The translations under genes were made by a program, and so were the position numbers. A stretch of 64,000 nt of DNA from contig NZ_JAHLYP010000019.1 of assembly GCF_025127995.1 (NCBI RefSeq), positions 1 through 64,000 of the forward strand. Direction: 5' to 3'. This document shows positions 4,510-37,206 of the stretch, piece after piece (positions within the stretch are counted from its first letter, which is position 1; each line of letters opens with the position of its first letter). The stretch is from Synechococcus sp. CS-1332. Lineage in GTDB: Bacteria; Cyanobacteriota; Cyanobacteriia; PCC-6307; Cyanobiaceae. The notes below the pieces were generated by a model. The model had not been told where the DNA came from and ran no database searches. It worked only from the letters and a program-made list of their open reading frames with translations.

Positions 4510-5337
4510 TCAGTGGTGGGGGCTGTCGGAGGCTGCAAGCTCCTCGGTGACGACGCGAAATCCGGTGAGCTGGTGATCGCCGAAGGAGCGCAGGAAGGGC
4601 ACATCCGCCGCGTCCCGGCCCCGGGCGATCAGCACCCGGCCGATCCGCGGAGTGTTGTAGCGGGCATCAAAGACGTGCCAGCGATCCTCGAGGAACGCCT
4701 CGAACCAGGCCGAGTAGTCAATCGGATCCGGCTGGGCCGCCACGCCCGAGTAACCCAGATAGCCGGTGCAATACCGCGCCGGAATGTTGAGGCAACGGCA
4801 GAGGCTGATCGCCAGGTGGGCGAAATCCCGGCAGACGCCGCGACCCTCCCGCAGGGCGTCGTGGGCGGTCTTGTCGCTGCGGGCGGCGCCGTAGTCGAAG
4901 CGGAGCTGCTCATGCACCCAGTCACAGATGGCCTGGACCCGCGACCAGCCGGGCCGGACCCCACCGAAGCGCCCCCAGGCGACCTGGGCCAGGCGATCGG
5001 TGTCGCAATAGCGGCTGGGGTTGAGATAGGGGTAGGTAACAATCGGCAGCGCCCCCACCGGGCACTCGCCCACATCCGCAGCCACCGGATCGGGATGGCC
5101 GTCATCGGCCACCACCACCTCGAACCCCAGCGTGGTGCTGCCGGCGGAGGCCATGAAGCGGCAGGCACGGTTGCCGTCGGCGTCGGTGAGCACCTCGGCG
5201 ATGCGATCCGGGCTCAGCCACAACCGCTCCGGGCCACGCCGATCCTCCAGGCGGCTGCCATGGGGATGGACCAGGGCCAGCACCGGTGTCGGGGCCCAGC
5301 AGGAGAGGGTCAGTTCGCAACCAAGCCGGATCAGCAT
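4510..5337 (-). CDS. Transglutaminase-like protein with catalytic His replaced by Ser
   Basis: 275 residues from the ATG at 5337. The transglutaminase core is clear: WSRVQAICDWVHEQLRFDYG, then GRGVCRDFAHLAISLCRCLN with the presumed Cys169, and WHVFDARYN with Asp224. At the position of the catalytic His the sequence is DYSAWFEAF (Ser209), where the paralogue at 32295-33134 has DFHAWFEAY. The N-terminal 100 residues are a beta-rich domain like that paralogue's. Without the His a papain-like Cys-His-Asp triad cannot form in the normal way, so the protein may be inactive, regulatory or binding-only. It is a lone gene here, unlike the paralogues in the Anbu run. ATG at 5337 was chosen because the longer open frame has no similarity. 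Confidence 0.85.
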   Translation of the reverse strand: MLIRLGCELTLSCWAPTPVLALVHPHGSRLEDRRGPERLWLSPDRIAEVLTDADGNRACRFMASAGSTTLGFEVVVADDGHPDPVAADVGECPVGALPIVTYPYLNPSRYCDTDRLAQVAWGRFGGVRPGWSRVQAICDWVHEQLRFDYGAARSDKTAHDALREGRGVCRDFAHLAISLCRCLNIPARYCTGYLGYSGVAAQPDPIDYSAWFEAFLEDRWHVFDARYNTPRIGRVLIARGRDAADVPFLRSFGDHQLTGFRVVTEELAASDSPHH

Positions 5338-29332: not shown

Positions 29333-29848
29333 TCAGGGGGCTGGGGATGAGGAGTGCCTGGCGCGGCTGTCCAGACGCTGCAACGTGCCCTGGACCCGGA
29401 GATGGTTGTAGCGCTGCAGCCAGATGAAGGGCAGGTTGAACAGGGTCGCGAAGATCAGGTTGATCAGCACCCCCACCGGCGTCAGCCACAGGGCCGTCAC
29501 GATCCAGAAGGGCCAAAGCGCCAGATGCACCAGCTCGGCCCGGCGGGTTTCCTCCAACAGGCGCTGCAGGGTGGCGCGATCCCGGCCCACCAGGCTGTTC
29601 TTGGCCACACCCCCCGGGAAGGCCGTGCCGGCGTCCGGCAGCAGGGATTTCCAACGATGGATGCCGAGCCGCTGTTCAAACCCCTCCTGACTTTCCGGCC
29701 ATGGGCGTCTGCCGGTGAGCCAGGTGTCGCGGGCCAGGGCCTGCTGGGGCAGTCGGTGGGCCAGCCAGCCGATCAGCAGCGACCACAGCAACCAACCCAG
29801 GCCGCAGGCCAGGACCGCTAGCGCGTCGAGAATCGTCTGCCTTTCCAT
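29333..29848 (-). CDS. CrtO-like glycosyl-carotenoid acyltransferase
   Basis: 171 residues with four or so membrane helices (LAVLACGLGWLLWSLLIGWL; FWIVTALWLTPVGVLINLIF). The central signature GRRPWPESQEGFEQRLGIHR and WKSLLPDAGTAFPGGVAK follows the CrtO acyltransferase family (glycosyl-4,4'-diaponeurosporenoate acyltransferase in staphyloxanthin synthesis), as does the end NLPFIWLQRYNHLRV. CrtO esterifies a fatty acid to the sugar of a glycosylated carotenoid. It starts inside the last 31 bases of the glycosyltransferase gene, so the pair is coupled. Whether the substrate here is a carotenoid or another lipid is inference. Confidence 0.8.
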   Translation of the reverse strand: MERQTILDALAVLACGLGWLLWSLLIGWLAHRLPQQALARDTWLTGRRPWPESQEGFEQRLGIHRWKSLLPDAGTAFPGGVAKNSLVGRDRATLQRLLEETRRAELVHLALWPFWIVTALWLTPVGVLINLIFATLFNLPFIWLQRYNHLRVQGTLQRLDSRARHSSSPAP

Positions 29849-30909
29849 TCGATTGTTCCCCGCTCAAGATTCAGGATCGCCAGAACGAACACCCCCAGAA
29901 AGAACAGTACGGGGATCGGAAAGATCAGGCAGATCCAGCCGAAGTCGCCGATCCGGCGCGTGACCACCATCAGCTGCACGGCAAAGGCGAGGTAGAGGAG
30001 CAGGTTGGGCAGCAGCGACGCATCCCCTTGCATCGGCCAGCCCAGGAGGGCGGCCGGCAGGCACCAGGCCGACCAGAACAGACCGGAGATCCACAGGACC
30101 ACACCGAGCATCCAGAACCAGCGCACTTCCCCAGCGGCGGTCGCGAAGTTCTTGGCGAAGCCCACCACCATGTCCTGGAAGCCACCGGGATACATGCGGT
30201 AATCGAGCAGGCCCTGGCCGATGTAGGCGCTCACCCGGAGGCCTGCCTGCTCGTAGAGATGGCCGAGAAACCAGTCCTCCACCACCTTGCCGGCGACCGC
30301 CGCATGGCCACCGATGTGGTCGTAATCGGCCCGGCTGGTGGCCATGGCCGGACCGAAGGCCACACCGCACCCCTTTCCCATCGGCACCGCCATCAGCCCC
30401 ACCAGGTTGAAGAGCACCGAGAGCTGCTCGTAGGGCTTCTCGGTGCGGTGGAAGGGCTGCACCGACACCAGGCCGCCCAGCTCCTGCTGCGCCGCCACGA
30501 GACGGTGCAGGAACTCGGGGTGGGGCTCGGTGTCGGCGTCGAGGAAGAGCAGCAGCTCCCCCTGGCTGGCGCGGACGCCATGGTGCAGGGCCCAGGTCTT
30601 ACCGCACCAACCCTCCGCCAGGGGCGGCGGCTGCATCACCCTGACCCCGGCTTCCGCAGCGATGGCGGCGGTGCGATCGCTGGAGTGATCGTCGATCACG
30701 ATCACTTCCGAGGGGGTGAGGCTCTGGAGATGCAGGGCCGCCAGCAGTTTTGGAAGGGTGTGTTCCTCGTTACGGGCCGGAATCAGCACCGAAACCGACG
30801 GGTGACCCTGAACCCTGGAGGGGGGGAGGCGCGGCATGCGCAGGCACAGGGCCCAGCCGAGCAGCCAGCGCACGAGCAGCGAGATGGCCAACAGATTCAC
30901 GGTCGGCAA
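29818..30909 (-). CDS. CrtQ-like membrane glycosyltransferase (GT2)
   Basis: 363 residues. N-terminal helix, then a GT-A domain: SVLIPARNEEHTLPKLLAAL, VIVIDDHSSDRTAAIAAEAG, and LFLDADTEP with the metal-binding DxD at 124-126. The catalytic base region is AVAGKVVEDWFLGHLYE. Three or four C-terminal helices and the ending GTIEWKGRRFSTR match the CrtQ family (4,4'-diaponeurosporenoate glucosyltransferase). It should add a sugar to a lipid-soluble acceptor at the membrane. With the downstream CrtO-like gene it makes the glycosylation-acylation pair of staphyloxanthin-type pathways. It is 19 bases behind the alpha/beta hydrolase. Confidence 0.87.
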   Translation of the reverse strand: MPTVNLLAISLLVRWLLGWALCLRMPRLPPSRVQGHPSVSVLIPARNEEHTLPKLLAALHLQSLTPSEVIVIDDHSSDRTAAIAAEAGVRVMQPPPLAEGWCGKTWALHHGVRASQGELLLFLDADTEPHPEFLHRLVAAQQELGGLVSVQPFHRTEKPYEQLSVLFNLVGLMAVPMGKGCGVAFGPAMATSRADYDHIGGHAAVAGKVVEDWFLGHLYEQAGLRVSAYIGQGLLDYRMYPGGFQDMVVGFAKNFATAAGEVRWFWMLGVVLWISGLFWSAWCLPAALLGWPMQGDASLLPNLLLYLAFAVQLMVVTRRIGDFGWICLIFPIPVLFFLGVFVLAILNLERGTIEWKGRRFSTR

Positions 30910-30928
30910 GGCTGCTTAGGCTTCCAAG

Positions 30929-31543
30929 CTAGGGACGTAGCAGCTCATCGATCAAAGCCTCCAGGGCGGCAGGATGACTCATGAGCTGGTGGTGAAAGCG
31001 CACGGGCAGGTTTTTCCCCGGCCCGATCGGCAGCACGGCCCGCCAGGCCGGCATCACCATCAGATCTGGTTCACAGTAAAAGCTGCAGCAATCCACGTCC
31101 TGCAGCGTGGTGAGATTTCCGTTGAGCCGATGCAGCAGCGGGCTGCCCGCTTTCAGATCGGCGATCCCGGCCAGGGGCCAGCGGGGCCAGGGCCCGGCCG
31201 TGAGGGTGCCCTGCTGGGGGCTGCCCACGCTGATCAGCCGCCGGGTGCGCCGATGGCCGCCCAGTAACTGGATCCAGGCGCGAGCAATCACCCCGCCCAT
31301 CGAAAAGCCCAGCAGATCGATAGGTTGCTCCAGGCCGAAGGACCCGTCGATGTGGGTGCCGAGCAGGGCGGCCTGCAACTCGATCGGCGTAAGGCCGAAC
31401 CGGTGGGGCAGGCGGGGGATCAACAGGGGGGCGCGGCGACCTGCCAGCTGACGCTTGAGCGGGTCGAACACGCCGGGGGTGTCCCACATGCCGTGGATCA
31501 GCACCAGCGGTGGGAAAGGGTGAGGCCGATCCTGGGTGGACAT
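30929..31543 (-). CDS. Alpha/beta hydrolase (lipase-like)
   Basis: 204 residues from the ATG at 31543. The fold is shown by PLVLIHGMWDTPGVFDPLKR (oxyanion strand HG), DLLGFSMGGVIARAWIQ with the nucleophile Ser in GFSMGG, and SVGSPQQGTLTAGPW as in PGAP1/LipA-type lipases. The catalytic His is probably in VRFHHQLMSHPAALEAL and an Asp in EPDLMVMP. It is 26 bases behind Anbu and 19 before the CrtQ-like gene, in one directional run. A role in lipid or ester breakdown is inferred from the fold; substrate unknown. Confidence 0.86.
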   Translation of the reverse strand: MSTQDRPHPFPPLVLIHGMWDTPGVFDPLKRQLAGRRAPLLIPRLPHRFGLTPIELQAALLGTHIDGSFGLEQPIDLLGFSMGGVIARAWIQLLGGHRRTRRLISVGSPQQGTLTAGPWPRWPLAGIADLKAGSPLLHRLNGNLTTLQDVDCCSFYCEPDLMVMPAWRAVLPIGPGKNLPVRFHHQLMSHPAALEALIDELLRP

Positions 31544-31569
31544 TGACCTGTCGCGCCGCGAAGTATCGC

Positions 31570-32298
31570 CTACCAGACCAGCTCCGGCAGCTCCCGGAAC
31601 ACCTGCCGGACGCCCACGCTCCACTCCCTGCTGAGGTCCTTGAAATAGGCATCACCCTCGCTGAATCGGAGCCGCTGGGTGATCTCGAGGCGATCCCGCT
31701 CGTAGAGGAGCAGGTCGATCGGCATCCCCACCGAAAGGTTGCTGCGCATGGTGGAGTCGAACGATACCAGCACACACTTGGCCGCTTCCGCCAGGGTGGT
31801 CTCGGAATGGATCACACGGTCGATGATCGGCTTTCCATACTTCGCCTCGCCCGTTTGCAGGAAGGGCGTGTCCTCGCCGGCTTCGATGAAATTCCCCTCG
31901 GCATACATCCGGAACAGCCTGGGTGCCTCGCCCTTGATCTGCCCACCCACCAGAAAGGAGGCATTGAAACTGGAGCCGGACGCCTTGAGGTAGGGGCCAT
32001 CCCGCTCCTCGATCGCCCGCACCGCATCCGACACCAGACCCATCACCTCAAACATGGTCTGGGCCGTCCAGACAGTGGGCTCCCCATCGCCGGCTTCGGC
32101 CCGCTGGCGCAGCAGGCCGATCACCGCCTGGGTGCCGGCCAGGCTGCCGGAGCTGAGCAGCACGAGCACCCGATCGCCCTTGCGCTCGAACACGGTCATC
32201 TTGCAGAAACTGGCGAAATCGTCCAGACCCGCATTGGTGCGTGAATCAGAAGCGAAGACCATCCCCCCCTCCAGCAGCACGGCCACGCAATAGGTCAT
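31570..32298 (-). CDS. anbu: Anbu proteasome-related protein
   Basis: 242 residues, MTYCVAVLLEGGMVFASDSR at the start. Thr2 after the initiator Met is the expected N-terminal nucleophile of the Ntn fold; ASDSRTNAG and KMTVFERKGDRVLVLLSSGS are conserved Anbu segments. Length and pattern fit Anbu, the ancestral beta-subunit-like proteasome homologue that forms a helical ring-like assembly in bacteria. The ATG overlaps the stop of the transglutaminase gene upstream (4 bases). Anbu is typically found with transglutaminase-like genes, as here. Whether it degrades proteins is not established. Confidence 0.93.
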   Translation of the reverse strand: MTYCVAVLLEGGMVFASDSRTNAGLDDFASFCKMTVFERKGDRVLVLLSSGSLAGTQAVIGLLRQRAEAGDGEPTVWTAQTMFEVMGLVSDAVRAIEERDGPYLKASGSSFNASFLVGGQIKGEAPRLFRMYAEGNFIEAGEDTPFLQTGEAKYGKPIIDRVIHSETTLAEAAKCVLVSFDSTMRSNLSVGMPIDLLLYERDRLEITQRLRFSEGDAYFKDLSREWSVGVRQVFRELPELVW

Positions 32299-33134
32299 GC
32301 CGTCCACACCTGAAACGATTCCAGCTCCGACGGGCCGAAGGTGGTGGTGAGTGCCACATCCGCCGCATCGCGACCACGGGCGATCAGGATCCGGCCGATC
32401 CGGGGCGTGTTGTTGCGCGGGTCGAACACATGCCAGCCATCGCCGAGATAGGCCTCGAACCAGGCATGGAAGTCCATGGCCGTATGGGGCGGCGGCACCT
32501 TGATGTCGCTCAGGTATCCGGTGCAGTATCGCGCCGGGATGTTCATGCAGCGGCACAGGGCGATGGCCAGATGGGTGAAGTCCCGGCAGACCCCTTCCCG
32601 GCTTTCAAGGGTCTGCAACGCCGTTTTTGTCGGGCTCGAACGGCCGTAGCCGAAGCGAACGTGCTGGTGCACGAAATCGCAGATCGCCTGCACCCGGCCC
32701 CAGCCGCCAGGAATCCCCTCGAAGCGCGACCAAGCCATGGGCGAGAGCAGGTCCGATTCGCAGAAGCGGCTGGCCAGAAGGAACAGCAACGCCTCTTCCG
32801 GCAGGTCCTCCACCGGCCGCTGTTCCAGCCAGGGCAACACCGGATCGGGCCGGCCGGAATCGGCCACCAGCCCGCTGCCCCGCAGTCGCAGCACGCCAGC
32901 CGGTGCCACCAGCCGTTGGCAATGGTTGCCGAAGGAATCCACGTACAGGCGCAGGGGCACCTCCGGCTCCACCTGGAGCGGGTCGGCCTCCAGCAGATCC
33001 GCGGAGCGGCTCGAATGCACCCCCAGGGTGACGATCATGGGCGTCGGCGCAGGGAAGCTCAGCGCCACATCGAATCCCACCCGGATCTCGATGGGCTGCG
33101 TCGGCAGCGGCGTAGCGCTCTGGGATTGATCCAT
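32295..33134 (-). CDS. Transglutaminase-like cysteine protease-fold protein (Anbu-linked)
   Basis: 279 residues. A beta-rich N-terminal domain (IEIRVGFDVALSFPAPTPMI) precedes the catalytic core: GRVQAICDFVHQHVRFGYGR, REGVCRDFTHLAIALCRCMN with Cys183, DFHAWFEAYL with His223, and HVFDPRNN with Asp238. The complete Cys-His-Asp triad contrasts with the paralogue at 4510-5337, which shares most of this core but has Ser for the His. Enzymes of this fold cut or ligate peptide bonds. It sits three bases behind the amidohydrolase and overlaps anbu. Confidence 0.9.
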   Translation of the reverse strand: MDQSQSATPLPTQPIEIRVGFDVALSFPAPTPMIVTLGVHSSRSADLLEADPLQVEPEVPLRLYVDSFGNHCQRLVAPAGVLRLRGSGLVADSGRPDPVLPWLEQRPVEDLPEEALLFLLASRFCESDLLSPMAWSRFEGIPGGWGRVQAICDFVHQHVRFGYGRSSPTKTALQTLESREGVCRDFTHLAIALCRCMNIPARYCTGYLSDIKVPPPHTAMDFHAWFEAYLGDGWHVFDPRNNTPRIGRILIARGRDAADVALTTTFGPSELESFQVWTA

Positions 33135-33137
33135 ACA

Positions 33138-33980
33138 TCACCCTAGGAACCGTGGGCGACCCTGCAGCGGCGGGATTTCCTCCGCCAGGGCATTCTCCAG
33201 CACACCGGCGAGGCGCTGCGCCCATTCCTTCTGGCCGGCCTCGGTGGCCAACAGGTCCTGACGGATCTCCAGCTCCACGTGGGGAATCCGGCGCCGCTCG
33301 CCGTGTGCCACCAGCGTGTAATCGCTCGCGTCGCTGACGGCATAGGGCTCGTTGTCCCCCACAGGCAAGCCGCACTCGCGCTCCAACTCCTGGCGGATTC
33401 GCCGGGCCAGACGGCCATCGCGGCCGTACAGCACCCCCACGTGCCAGGGGCGCACGTCCGCGCCGAGTACCGGCGTGAAACTGTGCAACGTCACCAGCAC
33501 GCTGGGCTGGCCGCGCACGCGTCGGGCCTCCAGCTCCGCCCCGATACGGCGGTGGTATGGGTGGAAGATCTCCTCGAGCCGCTGCTGCCGCTCCGCCGGG
33601 GCGAGATTGGCATTGGCGGCGATGGCGCCGGCCTCGCTGTGGCAGACGATCGAATCCGGCGCGTCCGGCGGCCGGTTGGCGTCGACCACCAGCCGTGAGT
33701 AATTGTGCAGGATCAGAAAGGCGTCGAGCCGCGCTGACAGCAGCAGGGCCAGCCCGGCCACGCCCAGATCCCAGGCCACGTGGGTGTCGAGCACCCGATC
33801 GTCCAGGCCAAGGCCGGCCAGCCGACGGGGAATGGCGCGACCGGCATGGTCGGCCGTGAGCAGCACGGCGGAGCGCCCGGTGGGGCAGACGATCCGGAAG
33901 ACGGCCGGATCAGCGGCCCCCAGCAGGGGTTCTAGGGGCACCGTTGCAGCCTGGATCGAAAGGGTCAGGCAGACAAGCAC
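33138..33980 (-). CDS. N-formylglutamate amidohydrolase family protein
   Basis: 280 residues from the GTG at 33980. The core carries the family's LLTADHAGRAIPRRLAGLGL, VAWDLGVAGLALLLS, RLVVDANRPPDAPDSIV, YHRRIGAELEARR and LVTLHSFTPVLGAD, with zinc-binding His and Glu candidates in DHAG, EIF-HPYH and LHSFTP. It hydrolyses an N-formyl or related amide of glutamate-like compounds, by homology. In Anbu-type clusters this gene occurs with transglutaminases, so an amide bond made or released by the other enzymes is a fair guess. Frame extends further upstream but into the preceding gene; GTG 33980 is the sensible start, 13 bases after the previous stop. Confidence 0.85.
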   Translation of the reverse strand: MLVCLTLSIQAATVPLEPLLGAADPAVFRIVCPTGRSAVLLTADHAGRAIPRRLAGLGLDDRVLDTHVAWDLGVAGLALLLSARLDAFLILHNYSRLVVDANRPPDAPDSIVCHSEAGAIAANANLAPAERQQRLEEIFHPYHRRIGAELEARRVRGQPSVLVTLHSFTPVLGADVRPWHVGVLYGRDGRLARRIRQELERECGLPVGDNEPYAVSDASDYTLVAHGERRRIPHVELEIRQDLLATEAGQKEWAQRLAGVLENALAEEIPPLQGRPRFLG

Positions 33981-33993
33981 GGCCGCCTGACAG

Positions 33994-34875
33994 TCAGGGC
34001 TCAAGCTGGCTGGTGAAGCCCTGGAGCTCAGTGATCCAGACGCCCACCTGCATCGACAGCAGCGAGGCTCCGCCGAAGCTGCCGGCGATGGGTGGCACCG
34101 ACTCTGGCCTTCGGGCCACAGCGACGGGGATGTGGGTGTCGCCGACAATGCCGGCATGGGTGGGATCGAAACCCTTCCAGCCAGCCCCCGGCAGAAAGAC
34201 CTCCGCCCAGGCGTGCATGCTGCCGGCTTCCTCCGGTGGCAGCGCCGTGAAGCTGTAACCACTGACGAAACGGGCGGCGAATCCGAAACACCGGGCCGCC
34301 TCCATGAACAGAAAGGCCATGTCACGGCAGGAGCCCCAGCCACTGTTGAGCGTTTCGGCGCAGGTCTGGACGCCAGGCTCATCGCGCTTGCGGTAGGAGA
34401 CGCGCTGGTGGGCCGCCAGATTCAGACGTTTCAACAACGTGTAGCTCTGGATGATCTCTCCTGGCTGCCAGACGGTTGACATCCATTGCAGTAAGGCTTG
34501 ACAGGGTTGTTCTGCGTCAGTTTGTGTCAGATAGGCCTCCAGGATTGGGCGGTCTTTGGATGCATAGCGAAAGGGATAGTGGACGGCCCCATCATCGACA
34601 AGGAAGTCCAATGGAACGCGGTCATATTGCTGAATGATCAGATTGCTTTCGATCAGCAATCTGTCAGCAGCCTCACTGAAGGACGCCGTGGCAAGACAAT
34701 TGCCCTCGACATCGCGGTGCCAGCGCAGCTTTGCCGCCGGGCTGATCGATAACGATGAGGTTTCGATGCGCAGGTCGTGGCCTTCCCGAGGACGGAGACG
34801 CAGTGTATGGGTGCCGAGTCGGACAGGGGCGCTATAGGTGTAGGTGGTGAGGTGATGGATGTTGAAGCGCCGCAT
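33994..34875 (-). CDS. Transglutaminase-like protein with Bact_transglu_N domain
   Basis: 293 residues from the ATG at 34875 (MRRFNIHHLTTYTYSAPVRL). The first 80 residues are the N-terminal domain of bacterial transglutaminase-like proteins (HTLRLRPREGHDLRIETSSL). The core has LNSGWGSCRDMAFLFMEAAR with Cys183, AGSMHAWAEVFLPGAGWKG with His221 and GFDPTHAG with Asp237, so the triad is complete. It is the first gene after the GH13 enzyme, 27 bases away, and is followed within 13 bases by the amidohydrolase. An active peptidase-like or crosslinking enzyme is likely; the substrate is not known. Confidence 0.9.
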   Translation of the reverse strand: MRRFNIHHLTTYTYSAPVRLGTHTLRLRPREGHDLRIETSSLSISPAAKLRWHRDVEGNCLATASFSEAADRLLIESNLIIQQYDRVPLDFLVDDGAVHYPFRYASKDRPILEAYLTQTDAEQPCQALLQWMSTVWQPGEIIQSYTLLKRLNLAAHQRVSYRKRDEPGVQTCAETLNSGWGSCRDMAFLFMEAARCFGFAARFVSGYSFTALPPEEAGSMHAWAEVFLPGAGWKGFDPTHAGIVGDTHIPVAVARRPESVPPIAGSFGGASLLSMQVGVWITELQGFTSQLEP

Positions 34876-34902
34876 CGGCTCGCCTTGCACAGGAAGGGTG
34901 GG

Positions 34903-36687
34903 TCACTGGGAATAGATCAGAACGCTGTAGGGCCCCACCCCAAAAGAGCCGTGACAGGGGAACCCGTCCCGCTCCCCTGGTACGGCTGCAAGATCAGCGC
35001 TAGGAAAACCATCAAAGGATTCACTGTAACCGTGCCAATCACTGTTGAAGCGAAGTGTCCAGCCATTGGCCGCCGGCAAACCAACGATGTAGTTCTCCTG
35101 GGGCTCGTGAGAAAAGTTGGCGATCACCACCACATCATCTCCGGGGCCCCCTTGATCCCAACGGTGAAAAGCGATCACGTTGCGCTGGGTATTGAGGTGA
35201 AACACCTGGGTGAACTGACCACAGAGCCCACGGGAGACGCCCTCCCGATCAAGGCGAAGGCGAATCAGATCCCGGTAGAGGCGCACGATGCCACGAAACT
35301 CCTGGCGCTGGTCCCAGTCGACGGGAACCGTATCGCGAAACCAGCCACCTTCAAGAAACTCCTGCCCCTGAAACAGCATGGGAATTCCTGGTGCCGTGAA
35401 CACCATGGCGGCCGCCAGGGTGGAACGCTTCTGGGCATGCCAGCCGGTGGGATCCGAGGGGTTGACGTCCTGGGGAATCCGGGACTGGCCATTGGCAACG
35501 TCGTCATGGGATTCGCTGTAGATCACCCGTTCAAAGGCGTCGTCGTTGTAGCGATAAAGAATGGCATCACGGATCTTCTCCAGAGCACGATCTTCATCCC
35601 TGGGCGCAATCACGGCCTGACGGATGGGTTGGATGAAGTGGGGATCCCATTGGGATCCAAAGCCCGCGCCCCCAGCCCCCACATCCTTGGTCAACCAGTC
35701 ATTGCTGCGCAGGTCTTCGGCGATCGTGATGTGGCCCGAGTCATGCCGGGCCACGGTTTCATTGATGGCCTGAAGGAGACTCCAGCCATCGGGAATCTCC
35801 TCAGTTCCAGCATCTCCGACACTTCGAATGTAACCCGTGCTGTCGAATCGAAGGCCATCAAGATGATACTCCTTGAGCCACATCGTGACGTTATCCAGGA
35901 TGTACTGACGAACCTCCCCCCGGCCATAATCGGGCCGCGTCTCCCCCCAGGGCGTCAGGGCACGATCATCGTTGTAGAAATAGATTCCCCCCTTGTCATT
36001 CTCAGACCAGCCATCGAATCTCCAGAGGTCAAGGTCACTGGGTCCAAAATGATTAAAAACCACATCCAGAATGACCGCAATGCCAGCTTGGTGGGCGCGC
36101 TTGACGAAGCGCTTGAAGCCCAGGGAACCGCCATAGTCTGAATCGACGGCAAAAATGTGAGATGGGTTGTAGCCCCAGGAGCGCTGACCTGCAAACTGAC
36201 CCACCGGCATGATCTGAATGGTATTGATACCCAGCCGGTTCAGGTGCTCCAGTCGAGCAGAGATGGAATTGAATCGGCCTGGTTGACTGAGGTCATCGTC
36301 ATTGAACGTGCCGACATGTAACTCATAAATCACAAGCTCATTCCAGCACTTCATGGAGAAGTTATCATCATCCCAATCAAAGTCAGGATCATGAATGATG
36401 GCATTGCCCACTGAGCTGGTCACCTCGTGGGCATAGGGATCAATGCGCTTGATCACCCCCCATGGAGTAGAGAGCTGAAACTTGTAGTGGTCGCCGATCC
36501 TGGCACTTTCAACACTGGTGGACCAGAAGCCGTGCGGCTCGGGGTCCATCGGATGGGCGGCACCATCCCAGTCGTTGAAGGAACCGATGACGGAGACCTG
36601 ATCGGCATGGGGCGCCCAGACCCGGAATGCCACCCCGGCAGGAGAGGGCATGGATCCCATGCCAGCAATGATCGGCGGCTTCACCAT
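34903..36687 (-). CDS. GH13 alpha-amylase family enzyme, branching-enzyme-like with CBM48
   Basis: 594 residues. N-terminal CBM48-type domain (AFRVWAPHADQVSVIGSFND), then the (beta/alpha)8 barrel: NTIQIMPVGQFAGQRSWGYN, DVVFNHFGPSDLD (conserved region I), DGLRFDSTGYI (nucleophile Asp282), TIAEDLRS (acid Glu324), YSESHDDV (Asp395). The chain resembles short 1,4-alpha-glucan branching and maltooligosyl hydrolase-type enzymes found in cyanobacteria, but I cannot tell branching from hydrolysis. It heads the minus-strand run of close-set genes to 29333, with 27 bases to the transglutaminase, although it may be transcribed alone. Confidence 0.88.
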   Translation of the reverse strand: MVKPPIIAGMGSMPSPAGVAFRVWAPHADQVSVIGSFNDWDGAAHPMDPEPHGFWSTSVESARIGDHYKFQLSTPWGVIKRIDPYAHEVTSSVGNAIIHDPDFDWDDDNFSMKCWNELVIYELHVGTFNDDDLSQPGRFNSISARLEHLNRLGINTIQIMPVGQFAGQRSWGYNPSHIFAVDSDYGGSLGFKRFVKRAHQAGIAVILDVVFNHFGPSDLDLWRFDGWSENDKGGIYFYNDDRALTPWGETRPDYGRGEVRQYILDNVTMWLKEYHLDGLRFDSTGYIRSVGDAGTEEIPDGWSLLQAINETVARHDSGHITIAEDLRSNDWLTKDVGAGGAGFGSQWDPHFIQPIRQAVIAPRDEDRALEKIRDAILYRYNDDAFERVIYSESHDDVANGQSRIPQDVNPSDPTGWHAQKRSTLAAAMVFTAPGIPMLFQGQEFLEGGWFRDTVPVDWDQRQEFRGIVRLYRDLIRLRLDREGVSRGLCGQFTQVFHLNTQRNVIAFHRWDQGGPGDDVVVIANFSHEPQENYIVGLPAANGWTLRFNSDWHGYSESFDGFPSADLAAVPGERDGFPCHGSFGVGPYSVLIYSQ

Positions 36688-36993
36688 GGTTCAACCCCTT
36701 CTAACCACTGTTTCACAGCCATACCTTTTCTGGTCAAGCGTTTAAAAACATTGAACATGAAGCCCGCGATCGAGGCGAATCCGCCTCCATGGCAATGCAG
36801 GCTGATGCAGAAGGCTGCATCAACGCCCTGTGCTCCGGTGGAGATTTCAGACGCGGGGCGATCCCACAGGACTAGGCTGGGAGGGCAGACCAAGAGAGGA
36901 ACGAATGATGTGAATTGAGTCGACTTCGTCTGCGATGCTGTCACCACAAAGGCGACCCATCGCCAACTGCTGATTCCCATCGCCACCCGAACC
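36688..36993. other. Divergent intergenic gap between GH13 gene and csbD-like gene
   Basis: 306 bases with no supported gene. It must contain the promoters of the GH13 gene (minus) and the CsbD-like gene (plus). The part next to the GH13 start is AT-richer (TTTCTGGTCAAGCGTTTAAAAACATTG). I see no convincing hairpin or repeat. Confidence 0.6.
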
Positions 36994-37206
36994 ATGTCCA
37001 ACAAAATCGACGCTGTCGCCAAGGATGCCGAGGGCAAACTTGAAGCGGCCCTGGGTGAACTGACCGGCGACACGGGCCACCAACTCAAGGGCAAGGCCAA
37101 ACAGGTTCAGGCCTCTGCCATGAACGCGGCAGAAGATCTGAAGGGTAGCGCCAGGTCCATGGCCCGAAAGGTCAGCGACGCTGCCGCGAAACTGGCTGAC
37201 GGCTAG
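36994..37206 (+). CDS. CsbD-family stress protein
   Basis: 70 residues, MSNKIDAVAKDAEGKLEAAL. The CsbD pattern KxEGKxxxAxGELTGDxxxxxxGKAKQ is clear (LEAALGELTGDTGHQLKGKA). The rest is a helical, charged tail (MNAAEDLKGSARSMARKVSD). CsbD proteins are small helical stress-induced proteins of unknown mechanism, general-stress regulated in Bacillus. It opens a region of stress and metal genes, with DUF302 and MerR genes following on the same strand. Confidence 0.93.
   Translation: MSNKIDAVAKDAEGKLEAALGELTGDTGHQLKGKAKQVQASAMNAAEDLKGSARSMARKVSDAAAKLADG

Follow-up and report, generated by a model that had tools for sequence, protein, structure and literature searches.

Background

To our knowledge, Anbu is a widespread relative of the proteasome whose structures have been solved and whose substrate and function are unknown. 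Three systems described earlier come close to the locus reported here. The canonical Anbu operon consists of genes for an ATP-grasp protein, Alpha-E, a transglutaminase and Anbu (Iyer et al. 2009, as cited in PMC5666114 and PMC6376114). Proteasome inhibitors bind to Anbu, and in P. putida its level rises under nitrogen limitation (PMC5666114), yet peptidase activity went undetected and standard peptides were cleaved by none of the Anbu proteins tested (PMC6376114). The other two are the HutG/PF05013 amidohydrolases (structures 2ODF and 2Q7S) and 3ISR of Cytophaga hutchinsonii, a transglutaminase-like putative cysteine protease.

The locus lies in a stretch of 64,000 nucleotides from Synechococcus sp. 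CS-1332 (the window) and resembles the canonical operon in that its Anbu is encoded directly downstream of a transglutaminase-fold gene and has an Anbu-1 active site. In contrast to that operon, ATP-grasp and Alpha-E are absent from the run and form a separate cluster without Anbu, an amidohydrolase (FGase) is added, and the adjoining transglutaminase-like protein (TG2) belongs to a 3ISR-like family without Bact_transglu_N, not to the type represented by TG1 of the same run and by TG3, encoded elsewhere in the genome. FGase shares its fold and conserved residues with HutG, but falls far below the equivalog cut-off and has a different gene context. TG2 is a member of the 3ISR family by sequence, yet most FGase-linked TG2 proteins possess Ser or Ala where 3ISR keeps the canonical His. 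We regard the locus as a variant of the known Anbu cluster. Our literature search returned no paper connecting either this amidohydrolase or a glutaminase gene with Anbu; the 2009 survey of Iyer et al., which may mention such a link, lay outside that search.

Gene arrangement in the window

The host genome (2.97 Mb) is that of a freshwater, Cyanobium/Synechococcus-like cyanobacterium, judged from its named relatives. Four closely packed minus-strand genes, whose families were verified by Pfam, encode TG1, FGase, TG2 and Anbu. With their neighbours they are, in the direction of transcription:

34903..36687, minus strand: GH13/CBM48 glucan-active enzyme, GlgB/TreZ-like, below the equivalog cut-offs; opens the same-strand run
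33994..34875, minus strand: TG1, transglutaminase-like with Bact_transglu_N (84.7 bits) and Transglut_core (60.4 bits)
33138..33941, minus strand, start GTG 33941 or 33980: FGase, PF05013 amidohydrolase subfamily (158.9 bits)
32295..33134, minus strand: TG2, transglutaminase-like without Bact_transglu_N (Transglut_core 82.3 bits), a relative of 3ISR
31570..32298, minus strand: Anbu, Ntn-hydrolase, proteasome beta-like (Proteasome 23.7 bits, cut-off 22.4)
30929..31543, minus strand: lipase-like alpha/beta-hydrolase, kept only by close relatives
29818..30909, minus strand: glycosyltransferase family 2, the last neighbour conserved among close relatives

The initial annotation gave gaps of 13, 3 and -4 bp between the four genes. 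The latter two (FGase-TG2 and TG2-Anbu) hold, and the first is correct only if FGase starts at GTG 33980; the start at GTG 33941, preferred by the alignment of relatives, leaves 52 bp between TG1 and FGase. The four-gene boundaries proved too narrow, as the GH13 gene lies 27 bp upstream of TG1 on the same strand and the lipase-like gene 26 bp downstream of Anbu, followed by the glycosyltransferase. Read from the genes alone, Anbu shares an operon-like arrangement with a transglutaminase, which comprises both adjacency and overlap. No sigma-70-like site was found within 30800-37100, although a sigma-70 model is weak evidence in a cyanobacterium, and an exact NtcA box (GTAN8TAC) is absent from the window and from the two other loci searched. 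A further TG2-like protein of about 275 amino acids (49% to TG2) is encoded at 4510 to about 5340 on the minus strand; its catalytic His position holds Ser, and its gene is unlinked to FGase.

Anbu and its paralogues

The window's Anbu begins with MTYC and matches the solved Anbu structures over its full length (E 4e-89 to 2e-68, best 4.4e-89). The Thr nucleophile noted earlier is borne out: Thr1, Asp17 and Lys32 are present here and in 36/36 sequences of the same clade. The S1 pocket (T20/F30/S48/L52/T55) is Anbu-1-like in the residue scheme of PMC5666114. Three Anbu paralogues occur in the host genome. A tree of 60 Anbu sequences unites the window's clade with proteobacterial Anbu (split support 100) and sets the two other copies apart from it. 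One of these (contig 31, L070:7925-9686, plus strand) has a glutaminase A gene immediately behind it, and all 21 short-form glutaminases of the host's order likewise lie directly after an Anbu gene (at most 200 bp from match to match). The third copy (contig 17, L071:7837-9572, minus strand) lies directly downstream of hrcA, the heat-shock repressor gene, an arrangement also found in three relatives (L104, L108, L109). The linkages of Anbu to glutaminase and to FGase together indicate that its partners in this group recurrently act on glutamate or glutamine amides, or resemble enzymes that do; the glutamate and amide theme proposed at the outset is thereby strengthened.

FGase and the transglutaminase-like proteins

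FGase matches PF05013 in both profile and fold. Its predicted model is confident (pLDDT 86.6), with 2ODF (TM 0.87, 35% identity) and 2Q7S as the closest folds and weaker matches to zinc carboxypeptidase, deglutamylase and aspartoacylase folds. Asp31-His32, His153 and Glu223/Glu225 are invariant and would fit a metal site. FGase is thus probably a metal-dependent amidohydrolase of HutG/carboxypeptidase-like fold.

Full Cys-His-Asp triads had been reported for both transglutaminase-like proteins, and each does carry one in the window. TG2 matches PF01841 and has the Cys nucleophile, its triad being Cys183, His223 and Asp238. As a description of the TG2 family, which is 3ISR-like (E 9e-55) and distinct from the TG1/TG3 type, the claim is misleading, because His223 is confined to one shallow clade of 12 sequences that includes the window's own. 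Outside this clade the position is occupied by Ser or Ala, and in the TG2 tree the clade is nested among such sequences, so that a single change suffices to account for it. Cys183 and Asp238 are invariant throughout the family, as is His188, shortly after the Cys, which neither TG1 nor TG3 possesses. AlphaFold models TG2 poorly (pLDDT 65).

The ATP-grasp/Alpha-E cluster

The initial annotation saw the amidohydrolase as a substitute for ATP-grasp and Alpha-E and proposed a search for these two genes elsewhere in the genome. Both are present, on contig 11 (L002:7976-15924, plus strand), where Alpha-E lies between a circularly permuted ATP-grasp gene and a transglutaminase of the Bact_transglu_N type (TG3). 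Next come a glycogen phosphorylase-like gene, identified from a reading of its sequence, and a DUF2126 amidoligase-like gene; Anbu is absent from this cluster. Of 150 genomes in the host's order, 129 have Alpha-E, most of these without Anbu, which is present in 34. FGase is therefore no stand-in for ATP-grasp and Alpha-E, which coexist with it and have their own transglutaminase; in this lineage the genes of the canonical Anbu operon are divided between loci, and Anbu is accompanied by other partners.

Conservation within the order

Among the 150 genomes of the order, 24 possess the window's Anbu clade and 10 have only other Anbu paralogues. FGase is found in 23 of these 24 and in none of the 126 others, a phyletic profile uncorrected for shared ancestry. 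In 18 of the 23 FGase genomes about 2.5 kb or less separates the gene from the window-clade Anbu, so the linkage proposed from the window alone recurs in other genomes. In two more (L078, L079) the FGase-TG2 pair is divergent to a different Anbu paralogue with its glutaminase, and in the remaining three no Anbu is near, although the genome retains the window's clade at another site. TG2 adjoins FGase in 21/23 genomes (L100 is without TG2), and the 4-bp overlap between TG2 and Anbu is kept at most loci. TG1 occurs only among the nearest relatives of the cluster, and TG1 and GH13 are common to close relatives only, which, given the wide FGase-TG2 adjacency, reduces the conserved core to FGase-TG2, usually with Anbu.

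In one subclade (L081, L085, L086) FGase and TG2 are truncated or lost beside an intact Anbu, both being truncated in L086. Anbu is thus kept without them there.

Occurrence outside Cyanobacteria

Strong FGase matches are restricted to 2 of 292 sampled cyanobacterial genomes, both of the window's genus. Outside the phylum, FGase relatives at 50-58% identity belong to Xanthomonadaceae, Acetobacteraceae and others; a minority of them have TG2 adjoining or within a few kb, and none of the proteobacterial loci read has Anbu adjoining FGase. In 149 Xanthomonadaceae genomes (thresholds above 450 bits for TG2 and above 300 bits for FGase), TG2 occurs in 12, FGase in 32 and Anbu in 44. All 12 TG2 genomes possess FGase, and 11 of them have Anbu, compared to 33/137 without TG2 (uncorrected for ancestry). 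Anbu likewise accompanies FGase in 21/32 genomes versus 23/117 others, again without correction for ancestry, and is absent from the other 11/32. At most of the loci inspected, Xanthomonadaceae Anbu adjoins Alpha-E and ATP-grasp. Genes for a Nudix protein, an exonuclease and a PrmC-like methyltransferase near Xanthomonadaceae FGase look like chance neighbours and were rejected as partners.

Elsewhere the arrangements vary. On a Sphingomonas plasmid TG2-TG1 is divergent from FGase, and Anbu is absent. More distant FGase homologues (42-49% identity) on rhizobial and enterobacterial (Klebsiella) plasmids (L110-L113) adjoin a MurR/RpiR regulator and an isochorismatase-type cysteine hydrolase; three of the four loci also have a glutamine-synthetase-like gene, and the context probably reflects an N-acyl or gamma-glutamyl amine pathway. 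A conjugative plasmid of Klebsiella pneumoniae (L117) carries a canonical ATP-grasp, Alpha-E, transglutaminase and Anbu operon, and on a megaplasmid of Acidithiobacillus caldus (L115) a pair of Anbu genes adjoins ntrBC, which places them in a setting of nitrogen regulation; DUF2126, ATP-grasp and Alpha-E are encoded there as well. An FGase-TG2-Anbu block in a metagenome-assembled genome labelled Candidatus Binatia (L145/L198) groups with the cyanobacteria and may reflect bin contamination or transfer.

The cyanobacterial TG2 sits inside Pseudomonadota in the TG2 tree, whose root is uncertain. FGase, TG2 and Anbu were likely acquired jointly from Pseudomonadota, as far as the sequences indicate.

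Discussion

FGase, TG2 and the window's type of Anbu have retained a conserved linkage within the order, FGase or TG2 co-occurs with Anbu in two phyla, and a second Anbu is linked to a glutaminase. We tentatively favour the interpretation that FGase, TG2 and Anbu form an amide-hydrolysing module that works in the catabolic direction, a possibility to which we would not yet commit ourselves. Anbu would cleave peptides or conjugates, after which TG2, as a transglutaminase-fold cysteine enzyme, and FGase may hydrolyse amide bonds of acyl or isopeptide type in the glutamyl products, and free glutamate with its nitrogen could thereby be recovered; in parallel, the Anbu paralogue coupled to glutaminase would handle glutamine-type products. 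A common substrate, the direction of the reaction and the action of the enzymes one after another are suggested by this pattern. We favour the catabolic module because FGase and the window-clade Anbu are both kept in the five genomes where they lie apart, because of the FGase profile and the conserved 4-bp overlap in the order, and because the FGase-TG2 pair of L078 and L079 stands beside the other Anbu and its glutaminase. The co-occurrence of TG2 and Anbu in Xanthomonadaceae, the position of the 21 glutaminases, the fold of FGase, the ntrBC genes next to Anbu in Acidithiobacillus, and the published inhibitor binding and nitrogen-limitation response of Anbu (PMC5666114) point the same way. 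Against it stand the failure of any Anbu to cleave standard peptides (PMC6376114), the Xanthomonadaceae with FGase-TG2 without adjacent Anbu or with FGase and no Anbu at all, the survival of Anbu where TG2 and FGase decay (L085, L086), and the lack of an exact NtcA box at the loci searched.

The conserved linkage also has rival explanations. On the one hand, the ATP-grasp/Alpha-E/TG3 cluster might tag peptides or proteins with a group of glutamyl type, which FGase, TG2 and Anbu would remove or recycle. Genes of such a writer type are present in the same genome, and elsewhere in bacteria ATP-grasp, Alpha-E, transglutaminase and Anbu share one operon (PMC6376114). However, most Alpha-E genomes of the order possess neither Anbu nor FGase, which argues that the writer works without these erasers, and we consider this eraser variant of a glutamate-releasing module rather unlikely. 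We know of no glutamyl-type tag that has been observed. On the other hand, the three genes might have entered the Cyanobium lineage jointly from Pseudomonadota and stayed together by descent, each in an unrelated housekeeping role. The near restriction of this kind of FGase to one order among the 292 cyanobacterial genomes sampled and the grouping of the window's Anbu with proteobacterial Anbu, apart from the other two copies of the genome, are in line with common descent. Yet the genes co-occur even where they are separated, FGase and TG2 are independently held close together in Xanthomonadaceae, a family in which the presence of TG2 also follows that of Anbu, and the pair has re-associated with another Anbu in L078 and L079, so mere passengers seem a rather doubtful account. 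That FGase is simply the HutG of histidine degradation, as membership in PF05013 might suggest, is highly improbable: it scores 30.9 bits against an equivalog cut-off of 278.75 (TIGR02017), its relatives score equally low, and its neighbours are not hut genes.

The catabolic module admits a wider version, which is more speculative. FGase and a mostly His-less TG2 could be general functional partners of Anbu across phyla, with Anbu complexes taking part in a glutamate-releasing pathway (deglutamylation or deacylation) and the paralogous Anbu rings of one cell each specialised for a partner of its own, be it FGase-TG2, glutaminase or the heat-shock context of HrcA. We hold this to be rather unlikely.

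With conserved partners active on amide bonds of the glutamate type, the Anbu substrate can be sought among a few assayable reactions, and because one small, culturable genus harbours three Anbu paralogues, each with a fixed partner of its own, the function of Anbu becomes testable. The conserved FGase-TG2-Anbu trio thus provides a testable clue, glutamate release, to the working partners of Anbu.
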